The position numbers were made by a program, and so were the translations under genes. 22,042 bases of DNA, taken from a virus. Where the stretch lies: the IMG/VR virus record IMGVR_UViG_3300033571_032329, positions 1 through 22,042 of that record; one strand, 5' to 3'. Below, piece by piece: positions 884 through 22,042 of the stretch (the first letter of the stretch is position 1; every line of letters starts with the position of its first letter). The notes beneath the pieces are model-generated. The model made no database searches. It worked only from the letters and a program-made list of their open reading frames with translations, and was not told the DNA's origin.

Positions 884-1165
884 GTGATTATGGCTTCATA
901 CGCGGAGGCATTTGGATATACGCCAAAACAATTCCTTAGCCTAACACTACCCCAGCTCGCCGCCTTTGGAAGGTACGCGACAAAGCAGGAAGAAGATAGA
1001 AAAAAGAGAAAAAATTCAAGCGGCTCATCTTCTTCCAGCGGAAGCACGAGTAGCTCAATCTCCGACATTGCTCAGATGTTTGGTACCCCAGAGACAAAGT
1101 CGCGCCTTCGAAAGCAGGCTATAGAACAAGCCAAAAAAGTTAAAATGGAAAAGGTTTCTGAGTAA
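884..1165 (+). CDS. Tail assembly chaperone, downstream (T-like) frame; expressed as -1 fusion 573-1165
   Basis: The frame lies -1 to the preceding gene and is open back through the slippery run. The listed GTG start at 884 has no convincing ribosome binding site. The real product is most likely a 197-residue fusion beginning at 573, slipping at 836-845 and reading on as V-G-G-T-E-K-W-S-E-I-D-W. The best folded part reads SYAEAFGYTPKQFLSLTLPQLAAFGRYA, spanning about 896-979. After it comes a basic stretch, a Ser/Gly-rich linker (about 1012-1059) and a charged helical tail. In the lambda system the T part contacts the tail tube protein while the G part binds the tape measure. The TAA stop overlaps the tape measure ATG by one base, so the two are probably translationally coupled. 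Confidence 0.82.
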   Translation: MIMASYAEAFGYTPKQFLSLTLPQLAAFGRYATKQEEDRKKRKNSSGSSSSSGSTSSSISDIAQMFGTPETKSRLRKQAIEQAKKVKMEKVSE

Positions 1166-4100
1166 TGGCGGGAAAAATAACTGACCAGCAGATGGCAGTC
1201 TTTGTTGCTATCGTTATAAAAGACATAGTTACTAATCGCGGGATAAATATACCCCGCGGATCAAGTATGGACGCAAAAGCTGCCCAGAAAATAGCGCACG
1301 AGAGAGTCTCAAGCCAACTGCAAAACGCGGGACATGACATCAGTCCAGCAAAAGTTGCCAAATTGATCAAATCAAATGGTTTGGATACCGCAAAAGCAAG
1401 AGATGCCATCCTCAAGCCCGCGGCGCAAAAAATAAAAGCAGAAACAAAAGCAGCAAAAGAGGCCTCAGCCGACAAGAAAAAAGGCATTAGCCGAACTAAC
1501 GTAGCTTTTGCAAAAGATATAGCGGCAAAGCAAGCAAAAATTCCTTATCAGGCGCCAAAAAGGGCAGCAGATACCTCAAGTCGGGCAAGGGCAAAAATGC
1601 CAACCATTCCCCCGTTAACAAGAGCAGAATTGCGCCTTGCAAAAAGGCTATTCCCTGGAATTTCGGACAGCGATGCCAACAAACACAGAGAGCACATTAG
1701 GCCAGCTGTTCAGCGCGGCGCAAGTGCGGGTTCTGGAAACGGGCAACGAAGATCAGATAGATTTATCGAACGCGGATATCAAACATTAAAAGACTCTGCC
1801 ATTCCTGGCGTTAAGCAGGCCGCGCCAGCATCGATAATGAGAATGGCTACCGCAAAATATACTCCAACCCCTTCATCCGCAGCAGCAAAACGGGTTCCAA
1901 TCAACGGTCAGTCTGGCGAGCAGGGTACCGGATCAACTGCAAGAGGGACTAGGTACTTCACCGCAGATCAGGCCGCCTTTATGCGTTCGGATCCTCGTGC
2001 CGTTCGTCAATACATGAAACTGCGAAGGTCCGACGCTGGTCGAAGAATAACTATTACGCAAAGAATCCCCGGCTCGCAAAGCATACCTGCCAGGACTGTG
2101 AGCACGCCGCTTCGTGGCGCTGCTAGGGCGGGAAAAATTGTAGATCTCATAAGAACCGATAGGGCACAGAAAGCCATTCGGTTGAGAGAGGACGCAAAAA
2201 AAATAAAAGCACCAGAAAAGATTGATCCAGCAAACGCAAAGCAAGTGGCAAAGGCAGCTGGTGAGCGAGAAGCCGTCAGGCAAGTTATGGCCAACAATTC
2301 CCGGAGAGTAGACTCAACAAGAGGATACGTTGCGTCAAAGGAAATAATAGGATCGACAGAACATGCCTCAAGAATTGATGCAATAACCTCAAAATCAATT
2401 ACGGCAGGAACAAAAATCTTTGGCCCATCAGATGAAAAGGCAGATACCGCGGTAAGGGGATCGGCGGAGAAAGCATATGCCCACGCGGTTGAAAGGTTCC
2501 AGCAGGACATGGGCATAAAATCCACTGATATAAAAAACCCTCAGATACTAGCAAAAATAGACGAGAAATTTGCCTCACCGGAGTCGCATGCAGCCGTTAT
2601 ACGATCTAGCGTTGCCACAATGGGCGGAAAAGATACCAGAAAAATTTCCCAAAGAATTAGGGAACTTGCTGCAAGCAAGAGTCCCGCGGATCGGGCAATA
2701 GCTCAGCGGATAGCCGACGAGTACATGCCTGGAAAAATAAACGTTGCAAGGCTTTCTGCAGATGCAGACAGGAAAGAAAAAGAAAAGGCGAAGGAGCCGG
2801 TGAAATCTGTTGAGCCAAAAAAGGTATCGGCAAGAGCCAAGCAAAGAACTGAAGAATTTAAAAAGCATGATAAAGAGACCAAGCGAAGAGAAGCTGCTAA
2901 TAAGGCGGCAGGCAAAGGAGAAAAACCATATCCTAAAGTTAGCGGCGATAGGGCAACGTTAGCAAAAGCGGTTGGGTTGCGATCGCCAAATCAAACTAAG
3001 CCTGGGCTATCTGAAGGATATGCCCACAAAGGAATACTATCAAACCAGGACATTGTTGGCGCGGCAAAAGCTAGGGCTGCTGGTAGCAGCCCAGAAATAG
3101 CGGACCGCAAAATAATTGCCAACACCATAGCTAGCAAAGTTGCTGGTTCGCAGGCAGTTTCTGGCGCCCCAAAGGCAATACTTGAAGCTATGGCTGCAGA
3201 CCCAAAGATAGCTAAATTCTACCTTGGCGAAGGGGCAACTGCAATAACTGGCGTCAAGGGGAAAGATATCGAGCGGCAAATGACCCAGAAGGAAATCCTC
3301 GATGCCTTTGCCGCAAAGAATGCAGCCGCCGAAGGCAAGGCTCCAAAGCTGCCAAAATCAGGCAAGGCTCCGAAAGCGCCAAAGGCAGAGAAGGCCCCTG
3401 CGGCTAAGCCAGCAGTAAAGCCCAGCGCGGCAGCACCCGCTAAATCATCTTCTAAGCCAGCAGCGGCTTCTGGTGGCTCAGGTGGCGGAGCGCCAAAGGA
3501 TCGAAAACAAATTGCCATAGACAATATGAAGACACGCTATGGTATGGAAGGGGCAATGCAAGGGAAAATAAAAGCAATTGATGCCCATATAAAAAGCCAG
3601 GGAATTGATCCTGCGACAAGGAAGCAAATTCTTTCCAGAATAGAGGCAAACGTTAACGCAAAAGTTGCTGGCGGGATGAAGGAAACCGATGCCTGGAAAT
3701 CAATAGGCATGCTTGGGAAAAATCTTGCAGGAAGCGACAACATAAAGGCAATTGTACGCGAAGCAAAGGCAGGTCCTGGGGCAATAGAAAAAACCCTTAA
3801 TACCATTGCTCCCTCAGAAGTTGCCAAAATGGCAGTGCCACCTGCGGAAAAGAAACCAGCTGCGGCAAAAGTAACTGAAAAAGCAGCAACAAAGGCAGCT
3901 GAGAAAACAGAAACAAAGCCAGCTGCTCCAACGGTTGCCGCCAAGGCCACTCCAAAGCCAGAGGCTACCCCGAAGACTTCCCCGAAGGCAAAGACTTCCC
4001 AAAAGCCAGCCCAGAAGCCAGCGGCAAAGGCAGCGACGCAGAAGCCAATCCCGAAAGCCCAAACAAAACCAGTGGCTCAAAAGTCAGCGCCAAAAGCAGC

Positions 4101-7100
4101 CCCAAGGTCAGCGCCTAAAGAAGCCAAAAAGCCAGCCGCGGCAAAGGTAACTAAAAAAACAGCTCTTGGGGATAAGCCCGTTAGGCCGATGTCAAAAGAA
4201 AAGCAGATAGCTGCCCTTGCCGCCTCTCAAGGATATAGTAGCAATAGCGGTGCAGGAAAAGCCTACATGTCGCTTCTCAAGAAGGGCGTTGATCCAGCCA
4301 CAGCAAAAGGCATTGTCGAGGATGGAAAGAAGTCCGGAATAGCCGGAAAGCAGCTTGAGCGCTACGCAAATAACCGACAGCGGGGAATGGACCATGACAC
4401 CGCAAAAGCTGTAGCAACGGCCCGAAAGGCCAGCGCTACGGCTGCCAGCGCAAAGCAAGAGGCGCAAAAGCCGAGCTCCGCTGGCGTTGAAGCAAAACCT
4501 GCCCGCGGCGGAAAGGGCGGTGGCGGCAAGGGGGAAGGCGGAGGGGGCGGGAAGAATAGGCGTGGCGGCGGCGGTGGCGGCGGGCAAGGGCCACAGAGGC
4601 CAACGACAACTAATCGCGGCGACTATATGGCTAGCGGTGGCGGCGGTGGCGGTGGCGGTGGTAAGGGTGGCGGCAGATTCGATCCGTATAACCAGGGCGG
4701 AGCAATAGGCGGAGCCGGGCAACTTGCTGGCCAGATAACAAAGAGCGTTATCACCGCCCAAGTTATTGGAAAAGTTGGCGCAATCCTTGGGCAAATAACC
4801 GGCGGCCTCATTGGCTTCAATATGAAGATAGAAGAGGCTGGCGTTGCGTTCCAGACATTGTTCGAAAACGAACAGCGGGCAATGGGTACGTGGCAGGGCG
4901 ATTCCACAATGGCAAAGCTCAAGGCCGCAGATATAACAAAGCAGATCCAAAATTTTGCTAACGTTACGCCGTTTAGGTTCCCAGAGCTTGTAACCGCAGC
5001 CGAGCGCATGAAGGCGTTCGGCTTTGAGACAAAGACAATTCTACCTAACTTGCAAGCAATCGGTGACGCAGTCGCCGCACTTGGTGGAGAAGATGACAAG
5101 CTAAGAAGAATCACGTACGCACTTGGGCAAATGAAGCAAGCGGGCCGGGTATACCAGAACGACATGATGCAGTTGTCCAACGCGGGTATCGCCGGATACG
5201 AAATTCTTGGCAAGGGTCTCCTTAAGCAAATAATTGAAACGGGAAGAGTTACAATTGCCGGAACCGAAGGAATCATTGATAAAAATGCCTCCAACATAGA
5301 TCAGTCGGTAAACGACATTGTTGCAAAGCAGGGTGCTGGATATAAGGTCATCTCTGCAACCAGGCAAAAATATAACGATATGTTTGAGGCACTTGCACTC
5401 GCCCCAGTTGAGGCGATTAGAAGCTACACAAAGAAGGGAATCATCGAGGGTCACGCAGCAGCGAACACCATCATGCAGGGCCTTGAGACAACTTATCAGG
5501 GCGGAATGCGCAAGATGTCCAGGACAATGCAAGGCGCAATCTCCACAATGCAAGATACGTCGCAATACCTTATCGCACTTTCATTCAAACCTGCGTATGA
5601 CGGAATAAGAGACCTTTTCTATAAGGCCGGACAGTTCATGATGAAGGAGGGCGGGCAAAAAATTGCCAAATCTGTTGCAAAATCAATACAGCCACTTTCA
5701 GATACATTCTTTAGAGTTATACCAAAGATGGGGAAGCTATTCTCTAATATAGTTTCCGGAATAGCAAAACCGTTTATAAATCTCTACAAGGCCATGCAAA
5801 AGGTCAAGATAGACGGCCAGGGGATGATCACGTTCCTTACAAATAGACTCGGGAAGGGCGTTATGTTCCTTTCGGAGATATTTAAAAATAGGTTTGTTCA
5901 GGCAATCCTTGCCGCTGCGGTAGCGTTTAAGGTTCTTACTACGGTCATGGCCGCAAACCCAATAATAATTGTAATTTCTGGCGCCGTTATGGCCCTTGGC
6001 CAGCTCACTCAAGGAATAGACAAGCTTAAGAAGGCCGGTGGAATTAGCAAGATTGGCGAGATAGCTCCAAAAGATCAAAAGAGCGCCGCATTTGCAATAA
6101 GAATAAATGAGGCAATGTCCGGAATAGCAAGAACAATGCAGCGACTTAAATCTGGCGTTGGACCAGCTGCGCAAAGATTCTTTGAGGTGATAGTAACATC
6201 GATAACGGATCTTGGCACTGGATCAATTGACAGGGCAACAAAGATGATCTCCGCGTTCCTAACAACTACAACTGGAGTCCTTCAGTCCATTGCGCCGTAC
6301 ACTGGGGAGCTCGCTAAGCTTCTTGTTGCCTTCATAGGATTTAAGGTTGCCGCTGGTGGGGTCAACATGTTCGTTGGCGTGATAAACACTCTTGTTCTTG
6401 CGATAAGCTCACTTGCTGGCGCAATGATCCTCTTTAAGGGCGGCGGCATGAAGGGCATACTTGGCGGTCTCATGGAAAAGGGTGGAATCAGCAGGGCTGC
6501 TGGGCTTATCGGCAGGACTGGTGCGGCAACAAGATCGGGAATCATGTCTGCAGAGGCGGCATCGCCAATAGCAAAAATAACAGAGGCCGCAGCATCAACC
6601 GGTCAACCCGTGGGGAGAATAGGGCCAGGAAACATCCTTAAGCAGGGGAAAATGGCACTCCGGGCAATCTTTGGTAAGGGGCCAGAGGGAACCACGCTTC
6701 TTAGCGAAAAGGTTGCTGGCGCCGGTAGGGCAATAAAAGTCGGTGCACCAGCAGGCGAATATTCCGTAATAAAAACAGCAAAGACATTTGATGCCGCTGG
6801 TAGGCCAGTTGTTGGCGCCGCAACAAACATTGCCTCAAAAATAGAATTCACAAAACCGGCCTCTGGCATTGCAAAGTTTGCCGCTGGGGTTGGAAACATA
6901 TTTACCAAGGGGAAGGGCGCAGCTGGATTCTTTGCAACCCTTGGCGGCGGGATAAAAATTGTTGCCAAACAGTTTGGGATCTGGGGCGTTCTTGTCCCAA
7001 TCATAATTGACAATATTGGAAATATTATCAGGTTCATTGGATCGTTTATTGGCTTTATCTTTAAATTGATTAGCGGACTTGGCGGACTAATAAGTGCCCT

Positions 7101-9906
7101 TGGCCCGGTTGGCGAGGCAATAAAAGCAGTGTTTGACATCATTGATTCGGTAGTGGGGTTCATAAGCACCACTTTTGGAAAAATTATAAATGCGCTATCC
7201 GACGGAATGGATCAATTTGGCGCAAGTACTGAAAGTACTGCCGACCAAATTGCAAATTACAAAGCGGAAATAATTGATGCTGGCTATTCCGAAGAAGACG
7301 CAATAAAAATCGCAACAGAGCTTGTCGCAATGAGAAAGCGACAGACGGCTGCGGCAATAGAGCTTGCCAGGGCTAACGGCACGATAGCCCTAATTCCGGG
7401 AATGAAAACGGGAACAACCACCCCAACAACTACTTCACCAACTGGAACATCGCCATCGGCCCCAACATCTGGCAAGCCAGTGTATGGGGGTGTTGTCCGC
7501 GCAACCGATACTGATGCAACCGGAAAAGTTTGGACGATGGACGAAAAGAAAGTCTGGTGGTCAAAGCCCGCAAATAAAGGAAAAACTCCGCCTTGGCAGC
7601 AATCGTACATAGACAGAACCTTTCCAACTGGCGGGTCCACTGGAACGCCATCTAGCCCACTGAGGAGGGGCTCAATTGGGCAGATTAAGAGCTGGGGCGA
7701 TACCGCGGTAATGACTCCAGATGCGAACAATCCGGGCAAAAGCAAGGAGACGACGCTCAACAAGGCTGGGGAGGAACTTGGAATTTCGGACCTTGGGAAT
7801 ATAGCGGGGGATGCGTATATTGCGGCTATTGCAAAAGCAATCGCTGCCTCGGAAGATTATAAGGCAACAATAATCAAGCTAGGCGCCACGGAGAAAGACG
7901 CAGAAGCAGCCGCCCGAGCAAAACTTACCGCCTGGGAAGACGAAATATCTGCAACCGTTGATAACGTCGCGGCAACCCAAGATTGGGGCTCGCTCATTGA
8001 TGCGGTTACCGCAAAGGGTGACAGCTTTAGCGTGGCAACGCAAAAAATGTCCGGAGACGTTAGCGCCCTTCGGGCGGAACTTCAATCCGCCTCCGATGGA
8101 TCATATGAAATCACCGTATACATCATAGACCAAGATGGAAACCCAGTAAAGGACACAATAAAGCTTGTTGGGTCTGCCGCAGAAAGCGCCGGAGCAACAA
8201 TGGAGTCCATTCAGGCGATTATAGACAGATACCGAGCGGCCATAGTTGATACCGGTGCTGTTTCCGGGGATATGGCAGACGTTATAGTAAACGCGAGAAT
8301 GAATGAAATAAGTGCGGCCATAGGCGATGCGGCGCTTGGATGGTACACAAACGCCGATGGGGTAAGGGAATATATAGGGCAAACCCTCGCAATATCTAAA
8401 GTTCAAGCGGATATGAAAAAGATAGTTGGCGTAAACTGGATGGACCTCCTTGCTGCAAACCTTGAGGATAAGCTGGAACGGGCAAAACAGGCCGCTGAAA
8501 AACTCAAGGCAATTATAGACCCACTTGTTGACGGAATAATTAAAAGACTTCAAAACAGCGCAGAGGATCAGTTTGCCGCAAGAATAGAGCATGTAACTTC
8601 CATACTTGAAGAGCAGAGAAAAGCTGAACTTGACGCAATCCAAGTAAGATCAGACGGGATAAACACAACGTACGGACAGCTCCAGAGAGAGATTGCCGCT
8701 CAAGATAAGAAAAACCGCCTACTCACTATTGAAAAGTCAATAATAGATGCTAGAAAAAATGTTGCCATGGCTGCACTTGCCGGATACGGCGATAACGCAG
8801 ATCCTCTACAGGCAGCAATTCAAAAAAGAGAAGCCGACCAGGCGATGACTGATGCAGTGCAAAAAGCACAGGAGGACATGAAGAAGATTACTATCGAAAA
8901 CATGGATTCCACAGCGCAGGCAGTTCAGGACACAATGGATCTCAGGATAGACATTGTTACAAAAGCACTTGATGATGAGAGGATGGCGTTCCAAGAGAAT
9001 ATTGATGCTATTGTCCAGAAAATTAAAGATGGCTCCATAAAAGGACAAGCCGCAGTTAACGCAATAAAGGGCGCATTCAGCCAGTTTAGCATAGCGCTCC
9101 CAGCGAATGTTCAGCAAATTGGCCAAAGCGGCATCATGCCAATATCAAAGGGTTTCCAGCAAATACAAACTGCAGTGGACAGATACTACAACAAATTGCA
9201 ATTAATTAAAAAGCTAGAAGATCAGCTTGGAAGTATTACCGACACTCCAACACCTACCGATCAAGAAGTTCTTGATGCAAAAAATGCAGATAATGCTGCT
9301 GATCAAATTACAAGAAACAGAGCATCAAAAGAAATTATGAGCACTGCCCTAAAGCAGTACAATGCCGCGTGGGCTAAATGGATGGCGGAAATTACAAGCG
9401 GCAAGCCTATTAGCGCTCAAACCACAGCCGCAAGAAATAGAATTCTTGGGGAATATAACTTGTTTATAAAATCAAAGCCTAGCAACATGGGATCGGTTTC
9501 CGAAAAAGACTTTGAAAAAATAATGAAGTCCTACACGGGATTTACCGGCTTCCTGCAATCTCCTGAAGTTGACCTGTTTACTCCGCCTCGCGCGAGAGGC
9601 GGCCCCGTTGCCCCAGGCGGCACGTATCTTGTCGGCGAGCGGGGACCAGAGATACTAACAATAGGTAGAACCCCTGGGGAAGTTATATCAAACTACTACG
9701 TCAAAGGCCTGACGGACACATTTAAGAAATTTAGCATTGGAAGCCCACGCGTTAGCGGCCAAATGTCGTATAATACTGGTGGTAAGACCGAGCTGTCTGT
9801 TGTCATCAACAACCCGCAGGTGCGAAACGATCAGGACATTGAAAGGATTGTCCAGGCCGTCAATAGATCGCAAATGCGTATGGCTCGCAAGTTGGGGCTT
9901 AGCTAA
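1165..9906 (+). CDS. Tape measure protein, 2913 residues
   Basis: The tape measure fills the tail tube, sets tail length and is ejected at infection. Residues 1-1110 are Lys/Ala-rich, with a Pro/Ala/Lys stretch at about 713-1002, and a Gly-rich segment covers 1113-1172. The recognisable tape-measure-type core follows at about 1200-1400 (FNMKIEEAGVAFQTLF near 1216, NDMMQLSNAGIAGYEIL near 1332). Hydrophobic stretches lie at about 1577-1612, 1719-1757 and 1937-2011. A Thr/Pro/Ser linker with a Trp-containing segment covers about 2086-2200, and coiled-coil-like helices about 2436-2629. Near the C terminus is the familiar GGPVAPGGTYLVGERGPEIL motif (2812-2831). No peptidase domain was recognised. 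At about 0.15 nm per residue, the whole chain would imply a tail near 440 nm, or about 260 nm if only the core spans the tube. The start is set by the one-base overlap and a weak GGAAAAGG site (1147-1154). Many ATA and AGA/AGG codons are used. Confidence 0.95.
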   Translation: MAGKITDQQMAVFVAIVIKDIVTNRGINIPRGSSMDAKAAQKIAHERVSSQLQNAGHDISPAKVAKLIKSNGLDTAKARDAILKPAAQKIKAETKAAKEASADKKKGISRTNVAFAKDIAAKQAKIPYQAPKRAADTSSRARAKMPTIPPLTRAELRLAKRLFPGISDSDANKHREHIRPAVQRGASAGSGNGQRRSDRFIERGYQTLKDSAIPGVKQAAPASIMRMATAKYTPTPSSAAAKRVPINGQSGEQGTGSTARGTRYFTADQAAFMRSDPRAVRQYMKLRRSDAGRRITITQRIPGSQSIPARTVSTPLRGAARAGKIVDLIRTDRAQKAIRLREDAKKIKAPEKIDPANAKQVAKAAGEREAVRQVMANNSRRVDSTRGYVASKEIIGSTEHASRIDAITSKSITAGTKIFGPSDEKADTAVRGSAEKAYAHAVERFQQDMGIKSTDIKNPQILAKIDEKFASPESHAAVIRSSVATMGGKDTRKISQRIRELAASKSPADRAIAQRIADEYMPGKINVARLSADADRKEKEKAKEPVKSVEPKKVSARAKQRTEEFKKHDKETKRREAANKAAGKGEKPYPKVSGDRATLAKAVGLRSPNQTKPGLSEGYAHKGILSNQDIVGAAKARAAGSSPEIADRKIIANTIASKVAGSQAVSGAPKAILEAMAADPKIAKFYLGEGATAITGVKGKDIERQMTQKEILDAFAAKNAAAEGKAPKLPKSGKAPKAPKAEKAPAAKPAVKPSAAAPAKSSSKPAAASGGSGGGAPKDRKQIAIDNMKTRYGMEGAMQGKIKAIDAHIKSQGIDPATRKQILSRIEANVNAKVAGGMKETDAWKSIGMLGKNLAGSDNIKAIVREAKAGPGAIEKTLNTIAPSEVAKMAVPPAEKKPAAAKVTEKAATKAAEKTETKPAAPTVAAKATPKPEATPKTSPKAKTSQKPAQKPAAKAATQKPIPKAQTKPVAQKSAPKAAPRSAPKEAKKPAAAKVTKKTALGDKPVRPMSKEKQIAALAASQGYSSNSGAGKAYMSLLKKGVDPATAKGIVEDGKKSGIAGKQLERYANNRQRGMDHDTAKAVATARKASATAASAKQEAQKPSSAGVEAKPARGGKGGGGKGEGGGGGKNRRGGGGGGGQGPQRPTTTNRGDYMASGGGGGGGGGKGGGRFDPYNQGGAIGGAGQLAGQITKSVITAQVIGKVGAILGQITGGLIGFNMKIEEAGVAFQTLFENEQRAMGTWQGDSTMAKLKAADITKQIQNFANVTPFRFPELVTAAERMKAFGFETKTILPNLQAIGDAVAALGGEDDKLRRITYALGQMKQAGRVYQNDMMQLSNAGIAGYEILGKGLLKQIIETGRVTIAGTEGIIDKNASNIDQSVNDIVAKQGAGYKVISATRQKYNDMFEALALAPVEAIRSYTKKGIIEGHAAANTIMQGLETTYQGGMRKMSRTMQGAISTMQDTSQYLIALSFKPAYDGIRDLFYKAGQFMMKEGGQKIAKSVAKSIQPLSDTFFRVIPKMGKLFSNIVSGIAKPFINLYKAMQKVKIDGQGMITFLTNRLGKGVMFLSEIFKNRFVQAILAAAVAFKVLTTVMAANPIIIVISGAVMALGQLTQGIDKLKKAGGISKIGEIAPKDQKSAAFAIRINEAMSGIARTMQRLKSGVGPAAQRFFEVIVTSITDLGTGSIDRATKMISAFLTTTTGVLQSIAPYTGELAKLLVAFIGFKVAAGGVNMFVGVINTLVLAISSLAGAMILFKGGGMKGILGGLMEKGGISRAAGLIGRTGAATRSGIMSAEAASPIAKITEAAASTGQPVGRIGPGNILKQGKMALRAIFGKGPEGTTLLSEKVAGAGRAIKVGAPAGEYSVIKTAKTFDAAGRPVVGAATNIASKIEFTKPASGIAKFAAGVGNIFTKGKGAAGFFATLGGGIKIVAKQFGIWGVLVPIIIDNIGNIIRFIGSFIGFIFKLISGLGGLISALGPVGEAIKAVFDIIDSVVGFISTTFGKIINALSDGMDQFGASTESTADQIANYKAEIIDAGYSEEDAIKIATELVAMRKRQTAAAIELARANGTIALIPGMKTGTTTPTTTSPTGTSPSAPTSGKPVYGGVVRATDTDATGKVWTMDEKKVWWSKPANKGKTPPWQQSYIDRTFPTGGSTGTPSSPLRRGSIGQIKSWGDTAVMTPDANNPGKSKETTLNKAGEELGISDLGNIAGDAYIAAIAKAIAASEDYKATIIKLGATEKDAEAAARAKLTAWEDEISATVDNVAATQDWGSLIDAVTAKGDSFSVATQKMSGDVSALRAELQSASDGSYEITVYIIDQDGNPVKDTIKLVGSAAESAGATMESIQAIIDRYRAAIVDTGAVSGDMADVIVNARMNEISAAIGDAALGWYTNADGVREYIGQTLAISKVQADMKKIVGVNWMDLLAANLEDKLERAKQAAEKLKAIIDPLVDGIIKRLQNSAEDQFAARIEHVTSILEEQRKAELDAIQVRSDGINTTYGQLQREIAAQDKKNRLLTIEKSIIDARKNVAMAALAGYGDNADPLQAAIQKREADQAMTDAVQKAQEDMKKITIENMDSTAQAVQDTMDLRIDIVTKALDDERMAFQENIDAIVQKIKDGSIKGQAAVNAIKGAFSQFSIALPANVQQIGQSGIMPISKGFQQIQTAVDRYYNKLQLIKKLEDQLGSITDTPTPTDQEVLDAKNADNAADQITRNRASKEIMSTALKQYNAAWAKWMAEITSGKPISAQTTAARNRILGEYNLFIKSKPSNMGSVSEKDFEKIMKSYTGFTGFLQSPEVDLFTPPRARGGPVAPGGTYLVGERGPEILTIGRTPGEVISNYYVKGLTDTFKKFSIGSPRVSGQMSYNTGGKTELSVVINNPQVRNDQDIERIVQAVNRSQMRMARKLGLS
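4501..4680 (+). repeat. Glycine-rich low-complexity coding segment in tape measure gene
   Basis: Runs of GGC/GGT/GGG codons encode several poly-Gly blocks, the longest nine Gly in a row, broken by Lys/Arg. They fall exactly between the Lys/Ala-rich N-terminal part and the recognisable tape measure core. This is probably a flexible hinge or a processing boundary. The base composition also produces misleading open frames on both strands here. Confidence 0.85.
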
Positions 9907-12900
9907 TGGCAATACGCGTCTACATACAGCTAAAGATTGAAGATTCGCCAGCTGGCATAGCTGGCTTTACCGACATTACCAGCAGGGTTGCGCTAGAGAA
10001 TTCCAGCTGGTCGCGCGACGCAGACGGCATGAGCTCGGAGATCTCATTTGATATCTTTACACTTCTCCCGCATTCTACATATCATTGGTCCGAGTACCCA
10101 GGAGCGACGTCTGCTGACAAGTTTGCAGCAGCGGTTGCCGATCAGGGATACAGAGTGTATGTCCCCATCAGGGCGGAGCTCTATGTTGAAGACTCCAACA
10201 CCGGAAAAAGAATCTTTGGTGGAATTGTTACTTCTGCGGATTATGCAAAGGAAAGTGGGTACATCATCGCCCACGTTACGGGAGGAGACTACACTCAGCT
10301 TCTAGAAGAGTGGATTATCAACCGATACGATATTCCCTACGGATCAAAAGATACCGACATCATCCTCGGCAACATAGTGCCAAACGCCTATACGGGCGAA
10401 GCCGTTCCATCAATACTTCACCCAGATAATCTTGCAAGAAACACGGACGGAGGGTCAGACTCGCCGGACATAAACCCACTGTTCTTTACCGTTTCCTCAA
10501 TTACAAAAAGCGGCAACGGTTCATACACATCTGGGATTGTAAGCAGCGTATTTACAACTTCCGACAACCACGATTTTGTCGTGGGTGACCAAGTAATTAT
10601 TACGGGAACCATTGGCACTTCATCTGATAGTGATGTGTTTGACTACACTGGTCCAATTACGCATGTGCCCAATGTAAACACCTTTGTTGTTTCAAATTTC
10701 CCCGCCAGCTATTCCGCAAACGCTGCGGGAACATCCTATCCGCAGACTACATCTATGGCAAGACATGATTATGTAGTAACAGCATCTGATTCAATATTTA
10801 GCCCAATCTACGTTGGCTATGGCGATGAAAGAAACATCCAAAAAATCAAAAGGAGCGCAGGATCCACTCGGGTAGCGATTGACACTGCTGCCCCAGCAAT
10901 CGCCTTTATTGAGTCAATTCCCAGCAAGGACTACTTCTATGCGGTTGAGGAGATCACAACTGATGTTACTAAGGCTGGCATTACCCCATCCGCAAGCACC
11001 GATGGACTTGCCATTGCCTTCATTGACCCAGACCCAACAAACACAAACCTTAGGGACGCGAAGACTGCAAGAATTGACCCAATAGTTACATCAACCCAGA
11101 AGACAATTAGCAACATTACAGCCATGGCCAACGGCGAGATAAAAATTGCCTTGCAGGCAGCAGTCTCGCTTGAGGCAAGAGAAAATACTCTCTGCTACAT
11201 TGTTGCAGCCGGTTATAAAAAGAATGCAAAAGGAACAGTCATTGCCGCGCAGACCGGAAACTTTACCGGCGTTTACAGAATTACCTCAATTGACGCGGCA
11301 AAAAACATTTTTACCGTAAAGCCAAGAAATCCAGCAAAGCCAGATCTATCCGGTATAAAAGTTGGTACGTTCTGGGGCGACTCCACTGGCGCAGATAGAG
11401 ACCTTGGATACCCCCAGACTAGCAGCGGAAAGCTAACTGGGGTAAAGGAAGACGACGCTTTTGTTCAGGCTGGCGTTGACCTTGTTGCTGGGGACCCATG
11501 GTCTATTACTGGCGACGGGAATGATTCAAAGGGGATCACTGGAGCTACCTCTGCTAAGTCTGCCCTACAGACTGGCTACGTTAGGGAAGTTGCCGCTGGC
11601 AAAGATACAGTTACCTACACGGTAGACGGAGCAAACAACTTTGCAGTCGGCGATTACGTTGGCGTTAGCGGGGTTACCATAAGCGATACGCCATACAATT
11701 TTGGTATAAAAAAAGTCTTGGGAGTTAACCCGCAGTACACCGTGTCAAGCGTAACCGCGGCACCATCAACAATCTCAACCACCTATGCCACGGGAGCGGT
11801 TGTGGCAGCTGGCTCAAGCATTGAATACAAGTATTACGATGTTGATCCCGGATTTGCCGTTGGCGACTATGTAAAGATTTCTGGCACTGGTTATAGCGAA
11901 CTTGATATAGACATTGCAAAAATTAAAGCGGTAACAAGCAATCAGAAATCTATCTCCTCAATTGAACAAGCAAAATCCGTTATCTCCCAAGACGGAACAA
12001 CTCAATCATCAATAACATCCCAAGGTACCACCGAGAATGGTTTTACCCTTTACTACAACACATTTACATCTGGCATTGTTGCTGGTGATTACGTTTCAAT
12101 TTCCGGATCTGCAAACACAGACATTAATACCGGACTGGCAATAGTTACTGCCGTCTCCTCAAGGGACGCCTCAATTGCAAGCGTAGCTGGATCAAAGACC
12201 CCAATTAGCGCAATCTCTAACGGCCTGTGGGGCATTACGCAAACGGATAACCGGGTTACCGCATCAAACGACGGAGAGTACATAGCTTATATTTTTAATA
12301 ACGGGGTAAACCCTGGCCTTGTGGTTGGCGACGCGATTACCATTTCCGGAATCAAAGACGCATCCGGCGCAGATTTTAGCTACTACAACAGATCAACTCC
12401 TGTAAAAGTAGAAAAGATTTCAACAGCTGGTGACGGAAAAAAGATTGTTAAAATTATAAAGCCATACACGGTATCATCTGCCGGTGCACGCACCTATAGG
12501 AACATCCCAACGGGGGCTGTCACAATAACGAGCTCCGTAATTACCAGGGTTGATATTGTTACATACACCACATCCTCAAATCACTCCCTCCCGCTTGGAG
12601 AGCTTGTAACTGTTGCTGGTTGCACAAATTCCGACTTCAACGTTTCCGATCAACAAATTATTGCAACAACGGCAAACACGTTTTCAATTGTAAAAACCCA
12701 GACTGGCACGTCGGCGTCTGGCGGTTTGGCAAGGCCGAAAGCAAACTCTATCAGCGTTCTGATCCCAGCAAAAGCTGTAACGCCATCGTCAACCGCAATA
12801 ATCAACGCGTCTGGAGCAACAATTACGCGTGTTCAAGTTGTTAAATATAAATTTGCAGCAGACGTTCCGTTTATTGTTGGTGATAAAATTTCAGTAGAAT

Positions 12901-15900
12901 CCGCCGGTGTATTTAATATTTCAAATCAGATAGTTGCAGGAATTGAAACCGCTGCTGCTGGAGCTAGGGCAGTTCCAGGAAAAGCAAGATCTGTTTCCGT
13001 AATATCAACTACAACGGGGTCGTATACATCTGGCGGAATTGCATATTCCACTAGATCGCAAAACTCTATTACGGTTGAGATCCCACAAGGGACTTTTTCA
13101 ACTCATGATTTTGCCCAATATGCCTTGATTGAAAGACTGCGAACAAACACGTACACGTTTGTTGGTAACCCAGATTTTAAAGTTGGGCAATACCCGAAAG
13201 TTCTTGGAAGCACCTCGGCAATATACGACCTTAACAGCTCGGCTCAAGATTATCCAATTAAACGCTACGAGTCGGAGATATCGTCAACGCCAACATACTA
13301 TCAGAGAACCGGAACCACCGTTACGATTACAACAAAGGGCGCTCACGGTTTTACAAAAGGAAGAACGGTTGTCGTATCTCTAAAAAATAACCCAAGCTCA
13401 ATAAACGGAACTTTTACCATCACCGATGTCCCAACGACAACAACATTTAAATACACCCGAGGGACCGGAACTATTGCAAAAACTGCGGTTGCAACTGGCG
13501 TAAGTACCGCTAAGCAGTACGGGCAATTTGTCACAATTTCCGCAAAGACTGGCCTGTTTGCTGGGGCCTCAGTGTACACCCGTGGATATTACGAGACGTT
13601 TACGGTTGGGAGCGGCGCTATTGCCGGTACGTCATACCCCGCGATAGACCCGACGCCAAGAACATCGTCATTTGCAAAGCGGGTTCCGACGGTTACGTAT
13701 ACATCCACTGGTCACCCATACACCGCAACCTCTGCCTCTAGCGGATCAAAAGTTACGGTATCAGGCATTTCCCCAAGCGGATTAAACATAACCGACAAGG
13801 AAATTGTTGACACAACAACAAATACTTTTGTTGTGAAAGACGTAGAGCTGATCACATCTGGGATAACATACTCATCTGGCGGCTCGGTATCACTTTCCGG
13901 GGCGGATAACAACGGATCATTCCGCATTGCGTATGACCCGGGCATGACTGATTCCGGTCGACCCTGGGTTGCATATTACAATGCTAATGCAGTCACTGAG
14001 TCGAGCACAAAGCAATCAACAAAAGGTGGCGGAACAAGGCTGAGGATTGAGTACGAAAACCTTGTATCTCACAACATAACAGAGAAAACATCTAAAAACG
14101 ATGTTCGAATTGGAGACACCGTCAAGGTAAGCGGAACGCTTAAGTCCGGGTTTATCAACCAGATTTCTATAAAAGGCGGAAAAGCAACAGTAATTACCCC
14201 AACAAATAACATTATCAACGGAGACAGGGTAACAATCTCCCAGGCTGGGGTGCCGTTTGATGGGTCTTGGTACGTCCACGACGTTGCAACAAGCCCAACG
14301 ACGGCAACCTCTTCGTTTGTTATTGATATCACTGGAGCTGCAGATAAAGACAGCGGAATATACGGCATAAAGCCAAGTTGGTCAGTAAATTTCTCTAATG
14401 ATGGAGACGAATCCACTGCCTTTGCCGTGGAGACTATGGAGAGGGACTCTTCTGGCATTGTAAAAATAACTACTACTGAGCCACACGACATTGTTGTTGG
14501 GCAAAAAGTTAACGTGATTATAAGGTCGGGAAACCTTTACGGTGAAATAAACGGATACCATTCAGTAGCTTCGGTTGACTCAAACTACATTACATATCAA
14601 ACGGCGCAAACTGGATCGGTTATCTCAATAACCGCGACAACTGGAAAAATTTACCAGCGCGATGGATACATTGTCTATCGGGTTCCAAACGAGAGTAGCG
14701 TTTACGCAATGTGGCCGGGGACCCAAGAGATCCCAGCAAGGTCGGTCCTTGCAACAGTAAATGAAAAGATTGACGTTGGCGACATTATTATGGTCTCCAA
14801 TACAAAAATTCCCGAAATAGATGGACAGTACCGAGTAGTAGAAAACACCGACTACTCTTTCTGGGGAACAAAGCAGCCGTATGCTGGATATTTTGAAGCA
14901 GAGCTGGTTGAAGGCACTTATACTACCGCCGCAGAATCAAGCCAAGGCGTATTCCAGAAAAAGCAAGAGATTGCAAAGGCAAGAATCCTTGAGCAGCTGA
15001 AGGGCAGGACAATTAGATCTGCCATAGACTTTATTACCTCGCGCACAAAGGGGCAGTTTTGGGTTGACCCGTACAAAAACCTTCAATACAAGAGAAGAAA
15101 AACAGTAAACATAGTCAAAACTCCGATTTACGAGTCCGGTTCTGGATCTTCATCCTCGCTTGGTTGGACTATAGACGGTGGATTTATCCTTGATAGTACC
15201 GGCGTGACTGGGCCGTATGGGACGGGCTACACAATTTATCACAGCGGCGTTGCAAAGGCTTGGCGTTATTACAAATTTGTTCCAAAGGCCACAAGAAAGG
15301 CTGGCTTTAATAACGCAAGTCTTTCAAAGATGCGGATATATTCAAGCTCCTCCGAGATTGCCATTGCCTCGGCAACCCCTCAGTATGCAACAGAGAACGC
15401 CGACGCAATAATTGACGAAAACAGCAACAGTGACTGGCTCACCACCAACATGAATAGCTCAACTGGGCCAAATGTAATTTTGGATATTTCATCTGCGCAA
15501 ATTGTTGATCACTACTCAATCTACACATCTTGGAACGACTCCACGGACTCTGACCCAGTTTCATGGGAAATATACGGCAGCAACGATCAGTCATCTTGGT
15601 CAATACTAGACAAAAAGGAATCCTACGGGACAACAGTTTCAAGGTCTACAGCGATTGGTACATTCTACATATCCCCACAAACTGCCGCGTACGCAAGATC
15701 TTCTGCAATTACCGTTTCCCCTGGAAAGAAGTACTGGATTTCATATAGGGTCAAGTCTCAGTCAGCATCAGCCGCGTCCGCAACGGTCTCATTTGCAGCC
15801 AGCGACGGGGCAGAGATCTCAGTAATAAAAACAATTTCTGGACCGGTCGTTCCAAACAATTGGGAGAAAAGGTATGCGATTGTTGAGGTTCCCACCGGAA

Positions 15901-18900
15901 AATACGCAATGTACGTTTCCGCAAAGATTTCTGCCGAGGATAAAGTTTCCTATTTTACTGATTGGTCCGTTGTTGAACTAAACGGTTCGTACGGATTCAG
16001 CGACAGGCCAGCAGAAGACGATGCGGCATACTCATCTGTTCTTCCATTCAAAGAATATGAAATCCCCGATTACTCAAAAGAAAGCTCCGGCGTTGCAAAT
16101 ACTGTATATATCTACGCTGCAATAATAAAAGCGGAAGATACCACCGCATCCGGATCTGTTCCATCTGCAGCAAGCACGGTAAGCAGCGAGAACATCATAG
16201 ACAACGGTAGCTTTGATCAAAACATCAAGCAGGCTAATGTATCCTCAATCATTAGGTATAACACCGGTTCCATTGTTCAGGTAACAACGATTTCTCCGCA
16301 CGGATTTGAAACCGGCGATTATGTTTCCGTTAGCGGAATACCATCAGATCTTACAATTGCAGATGGGACAAACATTGTAACGAGGATCTCCGACCAGGTA
16401 TTCCAATACGCAGAGGCTGGATCTGACGCAAGCAGAACGGGCATAGAAAATACCGGCGTTAAAGCTTCGTCAACTTACACGATAAAGAATTGGTCAGCAT
16501 CTAATGCGACTATCTCCCCAAGCACAAACTATGCTGTTGCCGGAGAGGTCTCGTTGCTGGCAATCCCTGCAGCCTCTGGAACAGTAACAATATCCTATTC
16601 TGAAGGCGCTGCGCTCAATATTACGCCTGGGGACTCCTATACGTTCTCGATCAGAACAATAGTTCCAAGCACTCAGGCAAATAGAAACATAACCATAAAA
16701 ATGTACTTTTATGGCAACAACGATGATCAAGTTGGTTATTACTCAGTGGCGGATGTATCGCAGTCTGCGGGAACATGGAAAAGCGTTGCAGTTTCTGGCG
16801 TTGCCCCCACCAGCGCGGTTTATGCAAAAGTGGAAATCTTAATTTCTGCCGCAGAAACCGCAGACTTCCACTACTTTGATGACGCAAAACTTATCAACGC
16901 GTCCTACCAGCAGATCTACTCTTATTCCTTTACCGACACCAAGGCCCTGTGGAACGCAAGCGGAAAGGTTATTGAGACTTCAATGGCAGATCAGCAAATT
17001 GCCACGGAGGAAGAGGTGACGCTCAAGGCAAAGCAATACTTTGAGGGCAACCCAAGCGGTCTGGAGTCCATTGGCTTTGATATGTCATATAACTCTGTTG
17101 CACCTCAGGTTGGAACCGTTGTCCCATTCCTCTGGAGGGACCTTGATATTTATGATGCTTACGTCATTAAGTCTGTATCGACAAAGCTTATCGGGACTGA
17201 AATCTTCTATAGGGTTCAGATAACTGGCGACTCAGAGCTCCTTGGCCGCGGTCTTCTTTCCGGGAAGAAGACTGCCCTTAGTGTGGTTTCTGATGGAGAG
17301 GGCGGGTCAAAGACAATCAACCCACCGGTCTATCCGTTTATTAATATTATCAATGGAGCAAACCCAGGAATTCAACTTAGGTGGCTTCACGCTTCTGGCG
17401 GTCAAAACTCAACGTACTCAATTTGGGCAAGAGCAATTCCCGCAGGGTCTGCGCAATACAGCGCAATTCAGTACAAGTTAATTAAGACCGGCATTGAATC
17501 AAATCCAATTGGCGAAATACAAGCTGCAAACGGCGACATCCAGTGGCGCGATGGAACAACAGTTGTTGATCAAACAATTGATAAAGAGGGAATGTATGTC
17601 TACAGAGAATACGACAGCAGATATTGGTACCAGTTTGTTATCAGGTCAAACATTCCTAACTTGTCAGGCGTGCCAGTATATTCAAGGCCAACCTATATCC
17701 CCGAGCCAGGGAGCCCGATTAGGCAGTACATTGCTCCGCCAACGGGCATTACCCTAAACTCAGACGCTCCGCATTCGTACGCCATTGCGGAAGACTACGC
17801 AGACAGCATAGACAGCGCCCCTTCAGAGGGAGACGGCTCTGGCATTAACTCAATCCAGTCCTCAGCAAATGGCAATCTTGGAAACCCGGTATTCTCGTTT
17901 ACTGGTGATGGAATTTCTATTTACAACGGAGCTGAATACACGGATGGGATAGGAAACACATATGACGCCGGTTCAAGAAAAATTCTTGAGAGCGATTTGG
18001 TAAAGGGCGTAACAATCAATGCTGACGTCATTAACACAGGCGTGCTCAATGCAAACGTTGTTGACGTCATTAACCTTAATGCTGACAACATTGTCGCTGG
18101 CACCATTGACGCCAGCCAAATCGAAGTCATCAACCTCAACGCCGACAACATCACCACGGGGACCATTGCCGCCACAGAGCTTCGCGTGGGCACTGGGGCC
18201 AATACCGTCGGCCTGACCGCAGACTACCTCTCTGGGACCGCGGGCTACGCCTTCTGGGCAGGAACAGAAGACCCAAGCAGCGCAAGTCCATTCTCTATCC
18301 AGACAGACGGGTCGGTCATTGCAAGCAACATTACTATTATTGGCGGCTCGCTTGACGCATCTATAGTCAATGTTACCAACCTTGCCGCAGATCAGATCAT
18401 TGTTGGGTCTGGATCTAACACCGTTGGGATTAGCCCAAACTACCTATCCGCCAGCGCTGGCTACGCAATCTGGGCAGGAAGCGCAACGCCAAGCTCTGCA
18501 AGTCCGTTCTTGGTAAGCACTGACGGCTCCGTTGTCGCAAAAAATGCAAACATTACTGGCACCATTTCTGCCTCTGCTGGAAACATTGGCGGATTTGCAA
18601 TTAACGCAACCTCCATAACTGCAGGCTCTGGGGCAACAGCCGTAGGCGTGGCACCAGGATCATACCCATTCTTTGCTGGCTCAGCCACAGCCGCCTCTGC
18701 GCCGTTCAGGGTCACCAGCACGGGCGAGCTGACTGCCTCTGGCGCCAACATTACGGGAACTATCTCGGCAACCTCCGGCAGCATTGGCGGGTTCTCAATC
18801 AACGCAACGTCGATATCTGCCGGGGTGGGCGTAAGCACTGTTGCGCTTTCCACCACGGGCGATTACGCAATTTACGCAGGGAGCTCAACCCCATCAGCAG

Positions 18901-21542: not shown

Positions 21543-22042
21543 ATGAAATTTCGAGTAAAGTCACAGTTGGATCACGAGGAAAAAGGCGGCATCTTGGATG
21601 ATTGCGGCCCATCAAGCATGGCGGCCTGTGTCTCTTGGGTGTTTAAGTACTCAGAAGGCAAGGACTTCACTGCTGCTCAGGGTATTGCAGCAAAAACCAA
21701 GGCCACTGGCAAGATTGATAAGCAGGGCGTAAGCGACAACGGTAGCACTCTTGCTGACCTTATCCTTACCGCCAAGCAGCTTGGGGCTACGGCTCGCTGG
21801 GCAAAGGACTGGAACGACGTCATCAACTCCGCTAAGGCCGGTGCGGCTCTTGGCGTCTGGGTTGAGCAGCCTGCTGGGTACCCCAAGGGCCTTGAGGTTT
21901 CCGCATGGCACGCAAAGTGGGAGCGCTGGTGGTGGGTCAAGCAGAAGCAGCCTACCCGCACCTACGGTCACATGACCGCCGCTGTTTACGACCCGATTGA
22001 CGGCTGGCAGTGGGCTTGCCCAACGCGATCCGGCAAGGGTGC
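21543..22042 (+). CDS. Papain-like (peptidase C39-type) cysteine peptidase, probable endolysin, 3' end missing
   Basis: The frame is open from the ATG at 21543 to the window edge, giving 166 visible residues. It has no signal peptide. Near the N terminus is LDDCGPSSMAACVSWV, with the likely nucleophile Cys21. YGHMTAAVYDP supplies the likely His143 and perhaps Asp150. The order Cys-Gly-Pro-Ser, then His about 120 residues later, is the C39-like papain fold. Such domains serve as the peptide-cutting part of some phage endolysins, acting on cell-wall cross-links at lysis. A cell-wall-binding or second catalytic domain could lie beyond the window. The Trp-rich stretch WERWWWV (about 126-132) is unusual. 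It has its own promoter candidate and ribosome binding site. Another possibility is a virion-associated protease. Arg codons are CGN, as in the tube gene. Confidence 0.75.
   Translation, partial: MKFRVKSQLDHEEKGGILDDCGPSSMAACVSWVFKYSEGKDFTAAQGIAAKTKATGKIDKQGVSDNGSTLADLILTAKQLGATARWAKDWNDVINSAKAGAALGVWVEQPAGYPKGLEVSAWHAKWERWWWVKQKQPTRTYGHMTAAVYDPIDGWQWACPTRSGKG

Follow-up and report, generated by a model that had tools for sequence, protein, structure and literature searches.

A variable N-terminal slot on the tape measure protein of a metagenomic phage clade, filled in one lineage by a long basic extension

The IMG/VR virus record IMGVR_UViG_3300033571_032329 (22,042 bases, analyzed over its whole length and called the window here; perhaps a fragment, with its upstream end cut) encodes a tape measure protein (TMP) with 1172 residues ahead of its conserved core. 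Relatives with the same core carry front ends that, compared as sequences, differ between clades beyond recognition. We tentatively favor the interpretation that the extension is a modular insert, this lineage's version of a variable slot, which is retained in the virion, adds to the tail and passes into the host. That the window's own extension merely lengthens the tail is nearly as likely. The clade is so far known from metagenomes.

The extension ahead of the tape measure core

The open reading frame (ORF) at 1165-9906 encodes a phage TMP, as judged from matches to the PHROG tape measure family phrog_9959 at residues 1248-1352 (E 4.5e-13) and to Pfam TMP_3 at residues 1253-1384 (E 3e-9; 37.2 bits, under the cut-off of 41). 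A profile of 17 cores, from the window and 16 relatives, begins to match at residue 1176, in agreement with an earlier reading of the DNA made without database searches (the sequence-only reading), which had described an extension of about 1170 residues before a core starting near residue 1200. The features of the gene, all on the + strand, are as follows.

1165-9906, + strand: TMP gene, a single unbroken ORF of 2913 residues
1165-4680, + strand: N-terminal extension, residues 1-1172, net charge +122 (composition and start of the core profile)
3385-3489, + strand: first Lys/Ala/Pro-rich linker, about residues 741-775 (composition, measured over 740-780)
3556-3774, + strand: predicted compact all-helical module, about residues 798-870 (blocks with AlphaFold confidence, pLDDT, of 59-80 from residue 801 on)
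3802-4179, + strand: Lys/Ala/Pro-rich disordered linker, residues 880-1005 (composition and AlphaFold)
4186-4422, + strand: predicted compact five-helix module, about residues 1008-1086 (pLDDT blocks of 70-91 from residue 1011 on)
4516-4662, + strand: Gly-rich hinge, residues 1118-1166 (poly-Gly runs)
4690-6027, + strand: conserved tape measure core, residues 1176-1621 (profile of 17 cores)
5893-7110, + strand: hydrophobic region, residues 1577-1982, containing all strongly hydrophobic segments of the TMP

The extension is strongly basic, as had been claimed: residues 1-1172 contain 12.7% K, 6.7% R, 18.2% A, 6.2% P and 9.3% G and have a net charge of +122, versus +30 for residues 1190-2913. 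Such a sustained skew in an 8.7-kb open frame is not due to chance. It also ends at poly-Gly runs, as the same reading had it. These lie at residues 1118-1121, 1125-1129, 1134-1140 and 1158-1166, and the last ends 10 residues before the core match. The description of the whole extension as low in complexity and histone-like held for parts of it. Entropy is ordinary (3.50-3.82 bits) in 10 of the 11 whole 100-residue blocks of residues 1-1100, with 3.40-3.99 bits in blocks of the core. Low complexity is confined to residues 740-780 (2.67 bits), 880-1005 (2.95 bits) and the Gly-rich 1090-1190 (3.14 bits), and the basic, disordered Lys/Ala/Pro composition of linker histones is found only at 880-1005 and about 741-775. 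The DNA coding for residues 880-1005 (22% K, 27% A, 16% P) includes short tandem units of about 24 nt. No strongly hydrophobic segment (19-residue mean over 1.6) occurs in the extension.

The AlphaFold model of the extension, made from an alignment of the window and its relative L001, has a mean pLDDT of 43.9. Apart from the two predicted compact modules, most of it resembles short helices and basic linkers, mostly at low confidence. Residues 881-1006 and 1089-1172 have pLDDT below 50 and are non-helical except at their ends. The module at 1008-1086 contains the stretch of the extension that is best conserved in L001 (57% over 70 residues). Foldseek searches of the model against PDB and BFVD, with a VIA second look, gave no match that stands out; the best structure score (Z 5.6) was to a designed helical repeat. 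Comparison of the extension with Pfam, PHROGs, NCBIfam and PDB sequences likewise gave no convincing match, and remote domains could escape these searches.

Relatives share the core and differ in the front end

Searching IMG/VR with the core recovered 76 loci. Among the 47 complete ORFs (the window and 46 relatives), 62-2984 residues precede the core; the lengths for the relatives run from the upstream stop codon and may be tens of residues too long. The tree and the counts use 30 representatives (the window and 29 relatives) left after collapsing near-duplicates, and one locus, L076, which lacks a region before the core, was omitted from comparisons of the extension. We distinguish six main extension families: A (the window and L001), B, C, D (short, about 310-500 residues), E (acidic) and F (the largest set, with eight representatives). 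Beside them stand two small groups, L041 alone and the pair L067/L071. This pair is almost devoid of a front end (62 residues in L071).

The families have no detectable homology to each other. At a BLASTP threshold of 1e-4 no links among them or to the two small groups were found, and in profile-profile comparisons among families A-F (11 of the 15 possible pairs run) the probability never exceeded 33%. The window's extension reached at best 19% in distant-homology comparisons with families B-F, and this value was not used. By eye, families D-F and L067/L071 have a short TMP-like header ahead of the insert. This header has no statistical support (D-E profile probability 1%).

In a tree of the cores (30 representatives and five outgroups, with L041 grouped with D), the family labels need seven changes, the minimum possible. 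Families A-E each form one clade (one change each) and F needs two; A, B and C together form a single clade (support 100/99). Thus, the cores have been inherited together with their own kind of front end.

Some properties recur across families. The extension has a net positive charge in 23 of the 30 representatives. Family E is acidic in the same slot of the same clade (net -40 to -117 in all six representatives), and basicity is therefore no general requirement. In 17 of the 30 representatives, the window among them, Gly or Gly/Ser runs lie no more than 300 residues from the core; six of the eight F representatives lack them. The lengths of the extension and of the C-terminal part are correlated (rho 0.80); as the relatives are not independent, nothing is drawn from this. 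Three relatives (L042, L044 and L047) have TMPs of 5545-5597 residues as open frames; were every residue to count, their tails would exceed 800 nm.

Outgroups show what the core looks like elsewhere. We compared 12 TMPs, from ten phage records and two prophages in metagenome-assembled genomes (MAGs); two of the phages, Lily and MMP17, have an annotated sheath. Judged from the match closest to the N terminus, 11 of the 12 have -1 to 85 residues ahead of the core. The exception is Thermobifida phage P318, which has the same core behind a leader of about 297 residues. We conclude that long front ends are a derived, or at any rate an uncommon, feature. The sequence-only reading had held that relatives combining a short N terminus with the same tail length would refute its view of the extension. 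The first half of this combination does exist, in these 11 outgroups and in L071. The two MAG prophages, both with short leaders, were all that a genome scan yielded, and it thus points to no host for the clade of the window.

Enzyme-like content in sister families

The extensions of families E and F contain the motif HEXXH in 13 of 14 representatives, versus 0.1 expected from shuffling; the lone exception, L057, is cut off at its start. None of the other 16 representatives has the motif in its extension. In five E sequences, HE.GH supplies four of only six invariant columns. The whole basis for a putative metallopeptidase in E and F is this motif and its conservation.

A Pfam scan of the extensions of 13 relatives gave matches above the cut-off in L070 and L030 alone, two members of one cluster. 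These are PI3/PI4-kinase-like matches at about extension residues 686-734, with 29.2 bits in L070 and 34.3 bits in L030 (cut-off 27.1). A profile of the whole L070 piece found nothing among PDB sequences, and an AlphaFold model of a 1200-residue piece of L070 has a mean pLDDT of 34.5. L070 has a second DRHG motif at residue 1903. L062 and L050 match ddrB-ParB at E 0.0009 and 0.044, respectively, both under the cut-off, and further matches below threshold were disregarded.

HicA (PF07927) matched the F-family extensions in 5 of 10 records, in each case under the cut-off (E 0.0016-0.13). AlphaFold gave the HicA-like segment the order alpha-beta-beta-beta-alpha at a pLDDT of about 47-56. A profile of the region against PDB returned no HicA, and its one row with a low E-value was a designed repeat protein in which no stretch passed alone. 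We regard a HicA-like module in the F-family extensions as a weak possibility.

Several such domains on one chain recall polyvalent proteins, which combine zincin metallopeptidases, kinases and other enzymes and are believed to be co-injected with phage DNA and then cut apart by their own peptidases (PMC5512222). A cargo function would be most plausible for E and F and is established for no family.

Evidence that the extension probably counts in the tail ruler

The tail of P318 measures 285 nm by electron microscopy, and its authors computed the same length from 0.15 nm per residue (PMC6893835). All 1899 residues of the P318 TMP at this rate give 285 nm; without the leader of about 297 residues, 240 nm would be expected. 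In phage TP901-1, earlier work found that deletion or duplication in the N-terminal part of the TMP changes the tail by 30% for 29% of the residues, with a slope of 0.145 nm per residue (PMC5099701). At 0.145-0.15 nm per residue, we forecast a tail of 422-437 nm for the window if all residues count and of 252-261 nm for the part after the extension, and the lengths given in the sequence-only reading (about 440 and 260 nm) were correct at 0.15 nm per residue. The comparative evidence from P318 and the TP901-1 mutants suggests that the extension probably counts in the ruler, predicting about 437 nm rather than 261 nm, and the earlier proposal that it extends the ruler gains support to that extent. 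Another comparison, of the 148-nm tail of Novomoskovsk with the 772-residue TMP of its companion phage Bolokhovo (both short-TMP Bacillus relatives), involves different phages and was not used.

Selection and mosaicism in the extension

Two family A sequences, L001 and L085, show purifying selection in the downstream part of the extension. Over L001 residues 860-1300 the ratio of nonsynonymous to synonymous substitution rates (dN/dS) is 0.28, and these codon changes indicate purifying selection. More widely, extension dN/dS is 0.06-0.32 in 8 of 10 pairs, those with measurable dS. Divergence of the extension roughly equals or somewhat exceeds that of the C-terminal region in most of 20 pairs compared.

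Along the L001/L085 extension, dS is 0.02, then 1.67 (dN 0.62) over a central stretch of about 460 residues, and then 0.10. At the DNA level, L085 5001-8741 aligned with L001 314-4178 runs from 98% identity through a strongly diverged allele to 90%, all in one gene. The central residues look like a recombinational swap between the two alleles. A comparable mosaic occurs in L070/L023, which share a front end but have diverged at the back.

How the extension may work

In the interpretation that we favor, the extension is this lineage's filling of a variable N-terminal insert slot on the TMP. We infer that in the window's virion it is assembled into the tail with the rest of the TMP and lies within the tube, on the side of the core that faces the head. 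From this location it would add tail length, to about 420-440 nm if every residue counts. At infection the membrane-active core would go in first, then the extension and directly after it the DNA; the extension may also have a role after entry. The slots of sister clades hold unrelated inserts, some of them enzyme-like, so the slot could act as a cargo compartment. The window's insert would be a string of small helical modules with basic Lys/Ala/Pro and Gly linkers between them. If this is right, the length of the tail in these phages would partly follow from the amount of protein injected, and the tape measure would serve for delivery in addition to measuring length. The clade would then offer a natural series, from 62 to 2984 residues on one core, for separating the two functions.

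Several observations weigh against this interpretation. No enzyme or known fold was detected in the window's own extension, the window's family has only two further members found (L001 and the incomplete L085), and the phage is known here from sequence alone. HEXXH is not confined to the slot, since 2 of 14 E/F representatives and 1 of 16 others have it in the C-terminal part (several are truncated); PDB profile searches with the HEXXH regions gave nothing convincing. The idea, formed by eye, that F-family extensions contain GNAT acetyltransferases was dropped after Acetyltransf_1 was found in 0 of 10 records. P318 is one phage and one data point, and a weaker core match in it would give a leader of 208 residues. 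Its leader is also a poor mimic, with five Pro in the first 360 residues, and thus gives no proof that linkers rich in Pro and Gly add the same length per residue. Over the first 280 residues, L001/L085 dN/dS is 0.80 on 14 differences, too few to judge selection by. Mosaicism, moreover, is normal in phages.

A wider and more doubtful proposal is that the clade's TMP is a cargo carrier. The slot would be filled clade by clade with unrelated multi-domain payloads of up to about 2980 residues, some of them with metallopeptidase-like, kinase-like and perhaps HicA-like modules. They would be threaded through the tail and released into the host ahead of the DNA, and the window's payload would consist of basic helical modules without a recognized enzyme. 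On this view, payload size would help to set the length of the tail.

The strongest alternative for the window, close behind the modular insert in our estimation, is that the extension is ruler and nothing else. Its sequence would drift freely provided that it still threads the tube, with the positive charge complementing a negative tube lumen. The fit of the P318 tail to the whole protein with its leader and the longer tails of TP901-1 with N-terminal duplications (PMC5099701) agree with this, as do the negative motifs on tube interiors (PMC9022992), the positive net charge of most representatives and the pace of extension divergence. However, sister families put HEXXH and kinase-like domains in the same slot and one of them is acidic. 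Moreover, residues 881-1006 and 1089-1172, predicted to be disordered and Pro- or Gly-rich, are unlike a helical ruler, and two modules are fairly confidently folded in the AlphaFold model, one of them well conserved.

We consider it unlikely that the extension is a basic head-proximal segment that binds the leading DNA end or the neck and primes ejection. The net charge of +122 would suit such a contact, and the Lys/Ala/Pro linkers resemble linker-histone tails in composition. The N terminus of the TMP has also been hypothesized to touch the head-tail connecting region (PMC5099701). However, scans of the window's extension against Pfam, PHROGs and further families found no DNA-binding family, the slot is acidic in family E, and the outgroup phages manage without an extension. 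The suggestion of DNA interaction in the sequence-only reading had charge alone behind it, and a large acidic family within the clade counts against it.

Removal of the extension as a precursor, by a cut in or close to the Gly hinge, made before assembly or in its course, that leaves the core alone in the virion, is more improbable still. A Gly-rich stretch predicted to be disordered does stand directly before the core, and sister families have metallopeptidase-like motifs. However, the window's extension has no HEXXH motif and no match to a peptidase family, which leaves the earlier idea of cleavage before assembly unsupported; Gly or Gly/Ser runs are missing from most of family F; and the length scaling in P318 argues for retention there. 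That an internal start yields a core-only TMP beside the long form is very hard to credit: Met1155 sits in the hinge right before the last Gly run, but no Shine-Dalgarno-like sequence is seen by eye at the usual distance upstream of it.

Comparison with known systems

The closest known proteins are TMPs of the TMP_3/phrog_9959 kind, such as those of Finn, Adolin, Lily (whose sheath was mentioned above) and P318. They share a homologous core with the window, whose gene probably also has the same setting as theirs, close to the tail assembly chaperones and ahead of tail tip or tail fiber genes. The window differs in its 1172-residue front end (-1 to 85 residues in these proteins, 297 in P318) and in its Lys/Ala/Pro and Gly linkers.

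The slots of the relatives resemble polyvalent proteins in having HEXXH, kinase-like and perhaps HicA-like regions on one large polypeptide, which would likewise be expected to enter with the DNA (PMC5512222). Here, however, the carrier is a tape measure, a word ("tape") absent from the main text of that paper. The window's insert differs further in having no recognized enzyme and in lacking HEXXH, the commonest, non-obligatory domain of polyvalent proteins.

Effectors of the Sle1 type also combine a tape-measure-related carrier with an interchangeable functional region, but in those proteins, which are parts of bacterial contractile particles, the variation is C-terminal (PMC13277306), whereas here it is N-terminal and found in phages. 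This parallel in contractile injection systems suggests that delivery by tape measures may be more widespread. The TP901-1 mutants concern the same type of protein and also N-terminal changes in length; those changes were made in the laboratory (PMC5099701), whereas here inserts of up to about 3000 residues are natural. No title or abstract among the literature matches listed describes phage tape measures with enzyme-like front ends or front ends of a thousand residues.

Genes around the tape measure gene

Upstream of the TMP gene lies a further feature.

573-1165, + strand: probable tail assembly chaperone pair, frames 573-848 and 884-1165

Frame 573-848 matches the tail protein family phrog_2115 (E 8e-5). 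Pfam and PHROGs gave nothing convincing for frames 2-433 and 884-1165. Shortly 5' of the stop of frame 573-848, at 839-845, is A AAA AAG, which we take to be a slippery motif for a -1 frameshift. Such a shift could fuse frame 573-848 to 884-1165, the usual gpG/gpGT arrangement of chaperones. The ATG of the TMP gene overlaps the stop of the preceding frame (TAATG).

Phage_sheath_1 was found in 0 of 35 related records. The same search overlooked the annotated sheath of Lily and therefore says nothing on whether the tails are contractile. WhiB, a marker of actinobacterial hosts, was found in 0 of 34 records.

Downstream, 9906-21482 encodes a tail protein of 3858 residues, repeat-rich by eye, with a C-terminal Peptidase_S74 intramolecular chaperone (E 6.4e-5, above the cut-off). 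The cut-off frame at 21543-22042, for which Pfam gave nothing significant, contains DCGPSS and later GHM and by eye resembles a papain/C39-type cysteine peptidase, perhaps an endolysin.

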